45,463 nucleotides of DNA from Patescibacteria group bacterium (GTDB lineage: Bacteria; Patescibacteriota; Patescibacteriia; Patescibacteriales; UBA12465): the NCBI GenBank assembly GCA_028705215.1, contig JAQWDY010000006.1, positions 1 through 45,463 on the forward strand, in the 5' to 3' direction. Shown piece after piece: positions 836 through 37,475 of this stretch (position 1 is its first letter; each line of letters begins with the position of its first letter). The notes under the pieces are model-generated. The model saw only the letters and a program-made list of their open reading frames with translations. It did no database searches and had not been told where the DNA came from. Both the position numbers and the translations under genes were made by a program.

Positions 836-1186
836 TTAGACTAATTCAATTTGAACCATTTCCGCTCCATCACCTTTTCTGGCTCCTAATTTAACAATTC
901 GTGTATAACCACCTGGTCTTTCAAGATAGCGTTTAGCTAAAACATCCATGGTTTTTTTTACAGAATTTTTTTGTAACAAAACCTTGATCAAGCCACGTCG
1001 AGCACTTAAATCTCCAGCTTTAGCTGAAGTAATCATTCTCTCAACTAATGGTCTTACCGCTTTTGCCTTTGCCTTAGTGGTTTTTACTTTTTCGTACAAA
1101 ATAATACTGGAAGCTAAGTTTCTCAGCATCAATTCGCGCGGACCCTTTTCTCGGTCTAATATTTTATTTTTATTTCTGTGGCGCAT
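836..1186 (-). CDS. rplQ: 50S ribosomal protein L17
   Basis: Large-subunit protein near the peptide exit tunnel; 116 residues, the normal compact length. The N-terminal RHRNKNKILDREKGPRELMLRNLASSI, the KVKTTKAKAKAVRPLVERMIT segment and the C-terminal GGYTRIVKLGARKGDGAEMVQIELV are typical L17 signatures. It follows rpoA after a 53-nt gap that holds a small hairpin and precedes rplM by 4 nt. No Shine-Dalgarno motif is visible upstream of the ATG (AAGTGTAAGAATT). Confidence 0.97.
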   Translation of the reverse strand: MRHRNKNKILDREKGPRELMLRNLASSIILYEKVKTTKAKAKAVRPLVERMITSAKAGDLSARRGLIKVLLQKNSVKKTMDVLAKRYLERPGGYTRIVKLGARKGDGAEMVQIELV

Positions 1187-1239: not shown

Positions 1240-2040
1240 TTATTTTTTTGCTTTTTTAGTTTTAGTCTTTTTCTCCTTAACAACTTCTTCTTTTACCTCT
1301 TCTGTTTCCTTTTCATCTTCTACAACTTCTTTTTCCTCCTCTTTTTCAACAAGTGCTCCAGGTAACAAGGCGTTAAATTGATCAACTAAGATTTTAACCG
1401 CTTCCCCAAATGCCTCTTCTGGCGTTATCGTGCCATCAGTTTTTACATCTAAAATTAATTTATCCCAGTTAGTCATTTTACCAACACGAGCATTTTCAAC
1501 CTTAATACTTACTAAAGTAACTGGTGAAAAGATAGAATCAATTTCTAAAAAACCGACTTCTTTATTCTCTCGTTTACTACCTTCGGTCATTTTGTAGCCA
1601 CGTCCACTTTTGACAATGATATCAACCTCTAAAGAACCGGCCTCATCGGTAATGTGAGCCAATACTAAGTCTGGATTTTTTATTTCCACCTCACTATTTT
1701 TAATAATGTCAGCGGCGGTAACAGTTTTTTTACCACTTACTTTTAACTCTAGCCTTACTTCTTCTTCGGTGAAAACCTTCATGCGCAACTGTTTAAAATT
1801 TAGGACCATTTGTAAAACATCCTCCTTAATATAAGGTATGGCCATAAATTCATGGCTAGCTCCTTTAATTTTTACACTCGTCACAGCAGCGCCGGGAAGA
1901 GATGATAAAAGAACACGACGTAATGAATTACCAAGAGTCATGCCGTAGCCAGGAAATAAAGGTTCGATGGTAATAACCCCTTCGTTGGGATTGCCAACTG
2001 TTTCAAAATTAATTTTTTTTGGGTTAGCAATTTTTTGCAT
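1240..2040 (-). CDS. rpoA: RNA polymerase subunit alpha, lacking a recognisable C-terminal domain
   Basis: Assembly platform of RNA polymerase. It has 266 residues against about 310-330 in most bacteria. Residues 1-230 form the N-terminal domain: ITIEPLFPGYGMTLGNSLRRVLLSSLPGAAVTSVKI is the classic dimerisation and beta-contact segment, and the domain ends in PEEAFGEAVKILVDQFNALL. After that there is only a 36-residue low-complexity tail of Glu, Lys and Val (231-266). The helix-hairpin-helix alpha-CTD, which contacts UP elements and activators, is absent. The gene sits between rpsD and rplQ, its standard place. The reading frame ends in a clean stop with rplQ following, so a sequencing frameshift is not suggested. 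Confidence 0.96.
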   Translation of the reverse strand: MQKIANPKKINFETVGNPNEGVITIEPLFPGYGMTLGNSLRRVLLSSLPGAAVTSVKIKGASHEFMAIPYIKEDVLQMVLNFKQLRMKVFTEEEVRLELKVSGKKTVTAADIIKNSEVEIKNPDLVLAHITDEAGSLEVDIIVKSGRGYKMTEGSKRENKEVGFLEIDSIFSPVTLVSIKVENARVGKMTNWDKLILDVKTDGTITPEEAFGEAVKILVDQFNALLPGALVEKEEEKEVVEDEKETEEVKEEVVKEKKTKTKKAKK

Positions 2041-2048
2041 ATTATTTT

Positions 2049-2678
2049 TTATTTTGAATAATACTCAATAATCATTTGAACGTTAAATCCTTGTGGCAGA
2101 TCTTCATCTTTAGGCTCATGTAAAACCTTCGCCACCATAGAACTTTGGTCAAAGTGTAACCAGCTTGGACGTTCAGCCTGAGCTAGCTTTTCTCCTAAGT
2201 TACGGAAATAAGGACTTTTTTCGCTTTTCTTTTTTATCGCAATTACCTGACCTTCTTTAACGCTAAAAGAAGGGATATCCGTTTTTACATCATTTACTGT
2301 AAAATGTCCATGATTTACCAATTGTCTCGCTTGTGAACGAGAATTGGCAAAACCTAAACGGAAAATTACATTATCTAAACGAAATTCAAGTGCTCGTAAA
2401 AAGTTCTTACCAGCATCACCTTTTTTGTTTGAAGCTTTTTCAAAAGTTAAACGAAATTGCTTCTCTGAAACGCCGTAATATCTTTTTGCTTTCTGTTTTT
2501 CTGCTAACTGATTGCCATAATCGCTTAAACGTCTTCGTGGCTTATCACCATGTGCACCAGGAATAGTATTTCTTTTAACCATCGCACATTTTGGACCAAG
2601 ACAACGCTCTCCTTTAAGGAAAAGTTTTTCGCCTACGCGTCGGCATTGTTTACATTTATTATCGATATTTGTTCCCAT
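2049..2678 (-). CDS. rpsD: 30S ribosomal protein S4 (zinc-binding form)
   Basis: Primary 16S rRNA-binding protein that nucleates small-subunit assembly; 209 residues, normal length. The N-terminus has four cysteines (Cys9, Cys12, Cys26, Cys31) arranged as in the zinc-carrying C+ form of S4. The S4 RNA-binding domain is visible as FRLDNVIFRLGFANSRSQARQLVNHGHFTVN at about 100-130. The gene lies 20 nt after rpsK and 8 nt before rpoA. Members of this family often repress their own operon, but no such binding site was identified here. Confidence 0.97.
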   Translation of the reverse strand: MGTNIDNKCKQCRRVGEKLFLKGERCLGPKCAMVKRNTIPGAHGDKPRRRLSDYGNQLAEKQKAKRYYGVSEKQFRLTFEKASNKKGDAGKNFLRALEFRLDNVIFRLGFANSRSQARQLVNHGHFTVNDVKTDIPSFSVKEGQVIAIKKKSEKSPYFRNLGEKLAQAERPSWLHFDQSSMVAKVLHEPKDEDLPQGFNVQMIIEYYSK

Positions 2679-2698: not shown

Positions 2699-3298
2699 TT
2701 AAACTCGACGTGGCTTTTTCGGACGGCAACCATTATGAGGAACTGGAGTAGTGTCCTTAATAGCTGTTACTTCTAAGCCATTAGCATTTAAAGCACGAAT
2801 TGCTGATTCACGACCGGTCCCAACGCCCGCTACAAAAACATTAACTTCTTGTAGGCCATACTCTTCTTTCGCTTTTTGAACAGCAATTTTAGTAATAATC
2901 TGAGCTGCATAAGGAGTCGCCTTTTTTGCTCCCTTAAAACCAGCTAGACCAGCTGAAGCCCAGGCAATAACATCGCCCTTAGAATCAGTTAATGTCACCA
3001 TAGTGTTATTATAAGTCGCCTGGATATAAGCACGACCAGCCTTAACAACACGAGCAGTTTTTCTCTTTTTCTTTTTTACTAATTTCTTTTTTGCTCGCGC
3101 CGCCTTATTTTTTTCCAGTTTCTGTTTGATTTCCTCAGGCAAATCATCATCAGAAGAATCAAGTGAAAAAGATAAGGACTCGTCCTTTTCTTCACTTTCC
3201 TCTATTTTAGCTGGTTTTTCTGCTGGCATTGTTTTTGCCTCTGGCTTTTTTTCAGCCTCTAACTCAGCTCCTTGTTCTTTTTTTTCTTTGTCAGACAT
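2699..3298 (-). CDS. rpsK: 30S ribosomal protein S11 with long charged N-terminal extension
   Basis: Platform protein of the small subunit. The conserved S11 domain (about residues 85-199) is clear: [18 protein letters not shown], the [21 protein letters not shown] segment, [17 protein letters not shown] and the C-terminal [16 protein letters not shown]. It is preceded by about 80 residues of acidic (Glu, Asp, Ser) then Lys-rich low-complexity sequence, making 199 residues instead of about 130. No methionine lies close to the S11 core, and the extension has no stop codon and fills the space after rpsM, so I take it as translated. Confidence 0.93.
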
Positions 3299-3321: not shown

Positions 3322-3717
3322 TTAGGTCTTTTGCAAGCCTGCCTTGCTCTTACCACTACCCATGGTCATACGCTTATTACCACGAACAGTACGGCTGTTG
3401 GTCTTAGTTCTCTGACCTCTGACTGGCAAACGCCTGCTATGCCTTAAACCACGCCAAGAGTTTATTTCTTTTAGGCGTTTAATATTACTTTGGATTTCTC
3501 GCTTTAAATCACCTTCAACAGTGAATTTTTTCTCAACAATCTCACGAAGACGATTAACATCTTCTTCTTTTAAATCTTTTACCCTTATATCAGCATCAAC
3601 TTTAGCTTCTGCTAAAATTTTATTGGCGCGAGTGCGTCCAATACCAAAAATATAAGTTAAAGCGATTTCTATTCTTTTTTCATTAGGAATGTTTATTCCT
3701 GCGATTCTTACTGCCAT
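3322..3717 (-). CDS. rpsM: 30S ribosomal protein S13
   Basis: Head protein of the small subunit that contacts tRNA and the central B1 bridges. It has 131 residues. Signatures are [29 protein letters not shown] (near the N-terminus), the helix-two-turn-helix stretch, and the C-terminal [20 protein letters not shown] followed by a Lys-rich tail. It lies between rpmJ and rpsK, the classical alpha-operon order. No Shine-Dalgarno motif is visible. Confidence 0.97.
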
Positions 3718-3728
3718 AAAATAAAAAA

Positions 3729-3842
3729 TTACCCTTGTCTTTGTTTGTGTTTAGGGTTTTTGCAAATAACGTGGACCCGACCTTTGCGTCGCACAACTTT
3801 GCAATCCTTACAAATTTTTTTCGCGCTAGCTCTCACTTTCAT
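3729..3842 (-). CDS. rpmJ: 50S ribosomal protein L36
   Basis: Smallest large-subunit protein: 37 residues, reading [14 protein letters not shown] at the start and [11 protein letters not shown] at the end. The zinc-ribbon ligands Cys11, Cys14, Cys27 and His32 are all present, so this is the zinc-binding form. It starts at an ATG on the complement at 3842-3840 and ends in TAA at 3731-3729, 11 nt before rpsM. The position between infA and rpsM is standard. Confidence 0.96.
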
Positions 3843-3910: not shown

Positions 3911-4156
3911 TTAGAGACGATAGGTAATTCTCCCTTTAGTCAAATCATAAGGGCTAATCTGTAATTTCACCTTATCGCCCGGCAAAAGTCTGATACGGTT
4001 CATTCTCATTTTGCCTGATAAATGCGCCAAAATTTCGTGACCGTTTTCAAGTGTAACACGGAAACTGGCTGCCGGCATCAACTCCATCACTTCGCCTTGC
4101 ATTTCAATAAAATCCTTAGCGTTTAAGTTGTCAGAGTTATTGCTGTTTTTTCCCAT
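3911..4156 (-). CDS. infA: translation initiation factor IF-1
   Basis: Small OB-fold protein that binds the A site during initiation. The core reads [19 protein letters not shown], then the [27 protein letters not shown] segment and [15 protein letters not shown], a full IF-1 domain. I start at the ATG at 4156 (81 residues, with about 13 Asn/Ser-rich residues before the core). A longer reading from a TTG at 4195 would run through the leader hairpin and add a hydrophobic stretch not typical of IF-1, so it is less likely. It is the first gene of the ribosomal operon, downstream of a consensus promoter and a hairpin with a U-run. Confidence 0.95.
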
Positions 4157-4170
4157 TTTTTTTAATCTTA

Positions 4171-4211
4171 ACAAAAAAAAGTTTGATAAAGACAAGCTTG
4201 TCTTATCAAAG
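4171..4211 (-). terminator. intrinsic terminator-like hairpin in the infA leader (possible attenuator)
   Basis: The minus strand has TTTGATAAGACAAG followed directly by CTTGTCTTTATCAAA, a near-perfect inverted repeat with one bulged base. A run of eight T (4178-4171) comes right after one intervening C. The element sits downstream of the consensus promoter at 4259-4287 and ends about 14 nt before the infA ATG. It therefore lies inside the leader of the ribosomal operon rather than after a preceding gene. The plus strand also has a short T-run after the stem, so it could work in both directions. Function as an attenuator is inferred from position only. Confidence 0.7.
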
Positions 4212-4258
4212 TTTTTAAAAATATTTATTTAATTTAATTTAATATTCTTAATAAAGCC

Positions 4259-4287
4259 ATTATAAAGGGAAAGTTTATCCTTGTCAA
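4259..4287 (-). promoter_or_regulatory. consensus sigma-70 promoter of the infA ribosomal operon
   Basis: On the minus strand TTGACA (4287-4282) and TATAAT (4264-4259) are both perfect and are separated by exactly 17 nt. Transcription should start near 4252, giving a leader of about 95 nt before the infA ATG at 4156. A fully consensus promoter fits a ribosomal protein operon with high output. Confidence 0.9.
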
Positions 4288-37447: not shown

Positions 37448-37475
37448 ATTATACATTATAGGTTATTTTTGTCAA
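37448..37475 (-). promoter_or_regulatory. strong sigma-70 promoter upstream of the DUF4143 ATPase and ileS
   Basis: On the minus strand TTGACA (37475-37470), a 16-nt spacer and TATAAT (37453-37448). A second TATAAT lies at 37460-37455, within the spacer. Start of transcription should be near 37441, giving a leader of about 18 nt to the ATG at 37423. Because ileS starts 5 nt after the ATPase stop, this is also the likely ileS promoter. Confidence 0.82.

Follow-up and report, generated by a model that had tools for sequence, protein, structure and literature searches.

A conserved hairpin and U-run in the infA leader of Patescibacteria is probably a conditional terminator of a ribosomal operon

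On the minus strand of the window (the whole 45,463-nt stretch of DNA analysed here), we found an operon that begins with infA and continues through ribosomal protein and RNA polymerase genes to rplQ, with alaS as the upstream neighbour (Table 1). As the original prediction stated, infA is preceded by a TTGACA-17-TATAAT promoter (4287–4259, minus strand), which has 12 of 12 matches and a 17-nt spacer. There are eight full-match promoters with 16–18-nt spacers in the 746-kb genome, and the infA promoter is one of the four perfect promoters with a 17-nt spacer. The near-perfect inverted repeat and T8 tract that had been noticed in the leader are present at 4210–4182 and 4180–4173; read on the minus strand, the hairpin sequence (TTTGATAAGACAAGCTTGTCTTTATCAAA) is TTTGATAA GAC AAGCTT GTC T TTATCAAA, followed by C and then by T8. 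The infA ATG at 4156 follows 16 nt from the T-run, close to the distance of about 14 nt given earlier, and an in-frame TTG (4174–4172), which begins in the last bases of the T-run, may be an alternative start.

Table 1. Features of the infA operon and its leader in the window.
Feature	Position	Strand	Basis or remark
alaS, upstream neighbour of infA	6145–4334	–	Name by homology; ends 46 bp before the infA promoter
–35 hexamer TTGACA	4282..4287	–	Conserved in about 90/97 order-wide infA leaders
–10 hexamer TATAAT	4259..4264	–	Start site predicted near 4252 from spacing
Upstream leader part	4217..4252	–	Weak A/U stem possible; relatives give no support (mean z –0.7, 21 leaders)
Hairpin	4182..4210	–	5' arm UUUGAUAA (4210–4203), GAC/GUC upper stem, 3' arm UUAUCAAA (4189–4182); folding, order-wide compensatory changes
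U8 tract, terminator-like element	4173..4180	–	U-run 0–6 nt from stem in 68/68 measured leaders
infA (IF1), first gene of operon	3911..4156	–	Orthologue searches; name from homology
rpmJ (L36)	3729..3842	–	Translation
rpsM (S13)	3322..3717	–	Homology
rpsK (S11)	2699..3298	–	Translation
rpsD (S4), candidate autoregulator	2049..2678	–	Translation; putative role, from alpha operons elsewhere (PMC10931766, PMC7247131)
rpoA (RNA polymerase alpha)	1240..2040	–	Homology
rplQ (L17)	836..1186	–	Translation

Folding calculations, which had been proposed as a check, agree with the original prediction. For the 97-nt leader the calculated folding energy is –16.5 kcal/mol (z = –3.6), a stability matched by 0 of 200 dinucleotide shuffles; the window hairpin alone is at about –9.8 kcal/mol, and in a dedicated terminator scan its score exceeded those of 20 of 20 shuffles. 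The hairpin is weaker than the GC-rich terminators of the same genome, and a generic terminator scan did not list it; the support for a terminator therefore comes from the dedicated scan together with the comparison with relatives.

For this comparison, infA leaders were gathered from the genus, family, order and class, and among the names borne by the relatives found via infA are Candidatus Falkowbacteria and other ABY1-type Patescibacteria; the Falkowbacteria type is a large group with tiny genomes. About 90 of the order's 97 infA leaders have the promoter, nearly always as TTGACA-17-TATAAT or TATACT, and most leaders of the order have a hairpin and U-run at the same place. The stem occurs in all family-level relatives whose upstream sequence is long enough, in weakened form in one (L116), and the family leaders follow the pattern TTTTGATAA, a variable upper stem, TTATCAAA, T6–8 and GTGTTAATG. 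Loss of the stem in close relatives, the finding that was to count against the original prediction, is thus not what we observed; the stem is kept across the family and most of the order. The hairpin and T-run beat 20 of 20 shuffles in 59 of 110 leaders, where about 5 would be expected by chance, and 22 of 53 further ABY1 leaders beat all 20 shuffles (about 2.5 expected). Some leaders are without the feature, and others have a hairpin that is weaker or of another kind: L121 and L133 have none, L116 has little U-run and family f20 has other sequences. When the region upstream of rpsM was checked for a hairpin in genomes without an infA match, contigs ended there or no clear leader was seen. Judged from these sequences, the element is order-wide and probably class-wide in ABY1 Patescibacteria. 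The bases past the U-run (GTGTT or GCGTT) are also conserved, even in leaders with a distant start codon (e.g. L142, L162, L166), and are possibly a pause or terminator downstream signal.

The position of the hairpin also bears on whether it simply terminates the upstream gene. The end of alaS (4334) lies 46 bp before the promoter, and the hairpin could be the alaS terminator that by chance lies after the infA promoter; however, the hairpin lies downstream of a perfect promoter that is conserved order-wide, no promoter fits between the hairpin and the ATG, and L011 has a separate classic terminator before the promoter while the leader hairpin is still present. We therefore regard an alaS terminator as highly improbable.

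Alignment of the infA leaders for compensatory changes, as had been suggested, revealed such changes order-wide in the stem core. The core variants across the order are UUGAU/AUCAA, UUGGU/ACCAA, UUGGU/GCCAA and UUGGC/GCCAA, plus G-U intermediates such as those in L013 (TTGGT/ATCAG) and L140 (TTGGT/GTCAA). Core pair 4 is G-C in 22 genera, A-U in 11 and G-U in 2, and core pair 5 is U-A in 18, U-G in 14 and C-G in 3; the arms in this core-pair table were found by pairing, so the fraction paired is circular, while the variety of pair types is not. Because the table chose its arms by pairing, we made a second arm test that took as the 3' arm simply whatever bases precede the T-run, with no pairing used, which avoids the circularity. 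In 52 of 89 leaders, at least 95% of the arms from other families pair less well than the leader's own 3' arm (mean fraction 0.17, as compared to 0.5 expected), and the failures are mostly leaders where a later T-run served as the anchor. Inside the window's family, the lower stem is almost invariant and compensation is modest; an alignment at the family level proves little because the lower stem hardly varies there.

The original prediction had also raised the stem as a palindromic operator, that is, a DNA site for a repressor, and the window copy is indeed a nearly perfect palindrome downstream of the promoter. This proposal did not hold up. Changes of pairs via G-U intermediates follow RNA logic and not DNA logic, there is about one site per genome, its position relative to the promoter varies, and the arm-to-arm length varies from 25 to 31 bp (about 47–49 bp in genus g3), with no fixed half-site spacing; a DNA operator is thus very unlikely.

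In each of the 68 leaders measured, the gap between the core stem and the start of the U-run is 0–6 nt, while the distance from the U-run to the ATG ranges from 1 to 131 nt and that from the –10 box to the stem ranges from 9 to 138 nt. The U-run stays with the stem and not with the start codon, indicating that it is part of the hairpin, as in an intrinsic terminator, and not of translation initiation. The arrangement is that of a terminator-attenuator, with a stem followed directly by a U-run between a promoter and the first gene.

The same distances bear on two explanations that dispense with termination. In a translational r-protein leader, a protein on the hairpin beside the start codon would block ribosome entry without transcription termination; the start codon in the window's family is only 6 nt past the U-run (16 nt in the window), and in the E. 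coli alpha operon S4 acts at the level of translation (PMC10931766). However, 13 of 34 leaders outside the family have a start codon more than 15 and up to 131 nt from the U-run, with the U-run still on the stem, and there is no Shine-Dalgarno site to mask; we consider this explanation unlikely. The genome has hardly any Shine-Dalgarno-like sites (2 of 45 window genes), and starts are embedded in A/T-rich sequence. Less likely again is a constitutive structural element, in which the 5' hairpin would stabilise the mRNA and the U-run would be a ribosome (S1) landing site where there is no Shine-Dalgarno sequence. The hairpin does lie nearly at the 5' end of the transcript in some relatives (9 nt past the –10 box in L132), but the U-run tracks the stem and not the start codon, runs of T7 or longer were not found within 35 nt upstream of 45 other window genes, and nine families have mutually exclusive pairings (see below). 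Separately, the family's conserved infA start motif GTGTTAATG is altered to TTGTTAAGA at 4174–4154 in the window and in its sister L004; in these two leaders the motif's conserved ATG has become AGA, and translation would begin instead at the following ATG or at the in-frame TTG.

As a control, we compared the infA promoter with the other strong promoters of the same genome, considering only the stretches around them. Most of the others have no such hairpin before the gene, and where a strong promoter lies no more than 120 nt from a gene, a strong hairpin and U-run stand between the two only at infA and typA. The leader of the typA/bipA-like GTPase gene (L203, G000:C22:66862-66890) has a perfect promoter, a terminator-like hairpin (AACACGGCTT..AAGCCGTGTTTTATTTTC) and an ATG 59 nt past the –10 box. 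In the rpsB leader (L202, G000:C22:33509-33536), a perfect promoter is followed by two terminator-like hairpins (TTCTGC..GCAGAAATTTTT; AAGGTGTTTTCACCTTTTTTCTT) before the start, and this leader is a possible second attenuator at a translation gene. In the window, a perfect promoter with a 16-nt spacer at 37448–37475 is followed by a short leader without a hairpin before an ATPase-like ORF.

A UACCAA segment that can pair with the 5' arm, and thereby exclude the terminator stem, precedes that arm by a few bases in 16 of 35 GG-type leaders, representing nine families. Its pairing is worth about –4 kcal/mol, and the terminator stem in the leaders that bear it is worth about –4 to –16 kcal/mol. 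By sequence, these mutually exclusive hairpins in nine related families have the layout of a classic attenuator. In families f2 and f19, the ACCAA-first hairpin is itself followed by a U-run. We found no such antiterminator (ACCAA) segment in the window or its family. Two other candidate elements were rejected: the window's family gives no support for an aptamer stem (P1) upstream (mean z –0.7), and a switch that pairs the 5' arm with the start-codon region (UUUUGAUA with UGUCAAAA), although possible in many f1 leaders, is lost in the window, L028, L030 and L031 and was dropped. Since the window's family has neither an ACCAA segment nor a supported upstream stem, any switch there must act on the hairpin itself, e.g. 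via a protein.

Taken together, the observed anatomy, order-wide conservation, compensatory changes and the way the U-run keeps to the stem suggest that the element is probably a conditional intrinsic terminator (attenuator) of the infA-rpmJ-rpsM-rpsK-rpsD-rpoA-rplQ operon. Attenuation, which the original prediction had called likely, is the best-supported mechanism, with the U-run tied to the stem and exclusive hairpins in nine families; it is predicted from comparison, and termination, its conditionality and the identity of the regulator are inferences. RNA polymerase would start at the strong promoter and transcribe about 95 nt of leader; on reaching the hairpin and U8, it would either release or read through into infA. 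The hairpin is A/U-rich and weak, so that a fraction of polymerases should always get past it. The level of termination would be set by a trans-acting protein that binds RNA and recognises the conserved stem, and this protein would balance operon output against ribosome assembly; the attenuator is probably read by such a protein. By precedent, S4, which the operon itself encodes, is the first candidate, put forward tentatively; NusA or a different protein of the operon could also fill the role. Elsewhere, alpha operons are under S4 control, and S4 additionally binds RNA polymerase as an antitermination factor, although one described as specific for Rho-dependent terminators (PMC10931766); in comparative studies, the leaders of alpha operons are assigned to S4 on precedent (PMC7247131). 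Many relatives have GGUAA in the 5' arm, which resembles the GUAA of Firmicutes S4 leaders (PMC7247131); the window has GAUAA instead.

A broader and more doubtful proposal takes in the rpsB and typA leaders, in which a hairpin and U-run follow perfect promoters in the same genome as the infA element. Translation-machinery operons (infA-alpha, perhaps rpsB and typA) may be ruled mainly by protein-sensed intrinsic terminators in Patescibacteria that are nearly without Shine-Dalgarno sequences, and masking of the ribosome site would be unavailable as a means of repression because there are almost no such sequences to mask. On this view, the infA element would represent one attenuator family spanning ABY1, of which some lineages have retained a switchable form (A:B against B:C). 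If the attenuator reading is correct, it would provide a direct route that matches ribosome production to growth in Patescibacteria, where gene regulation is little explored, through an operon that covers IF1, S13, S11, S4, RNA polymerase alpha and L17.

Comparison with Rfam covariance models, also at relaxed thresholds, gave only chance matches to unrelated families and no match to an alpha-operon or S4 leader, in line with the earlier statement that no classic ribosomal-protein binding site was recognised. In the literature searched, mostly outside subscription journals, we found no infA leader of this kind. The element does lie consistently upstream of r-protein genes and has a covarying structure, as expected of an r-protein leader. 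S4 leaders of alpha operons (the gammaproteobacterial pseudoknot and the Clostridia and Fusobacteriales motifs; PMC7247131) share the operon core rpsM-rpsK-rpsD-rpoA-rplQ; however, the infA element differs in structure, lies before infA and not rpsM, and is terminator-like and not translational. B. subtilis rplJL is an established case in which r-proteins, here L10(L12)4, attenuate transcription (PMC4538822), and in both rplJL and infC-rpmI-rplT (L20, cited in PMC10931766) an intrinsic terminator lies between the promoter and the r-protein operon, as the predicted terminator does in the infA leader. The competing hairpins of these B. subtilis leaders have a counterpart in the nine families related to the window's; the rplJL leader has a protein-binding anti-antiterminator, whereas the infA leader is short and, in the window, has no antiterminator segment.

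The closest known element is the rimP-leader, an attenuator of rimP-nusA-infB (Naville and Gautheret 2010, PMC2965389), for which that study suggested a protein such as NusA as the reader. Both elements, the infA one by prediction, are terminators in the leader of a translation operon with an unusual conserved stem and no larger aptamer, and the terminator-to-start distance is 4–130 nt for the rimP-leader and 1–131 nt for the infA element. In both, an upstream inverse motif in some lineages can form termination/antitermination structures, and most species with the rimP-leader also have no alternative pairing. In contrast to the GGGc/gCCC stem of the rimP-leader, the infA element has UUGGU/ACCAA or UUGAU/AUCAA (in the order also UUGGY/RCCAA), and its other operon (infA-alpha), other phylum and weaker, A/U-rich stem place it outside the rimP-leader. 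Thus, the infA element appears to belong to a known type, the terminator-only leader attenuators of translation operons, as a member that no Rfam family or report we found covers. As a second such leader at a translation operon, after rimP, it would help to ask which protein reads these terminators.
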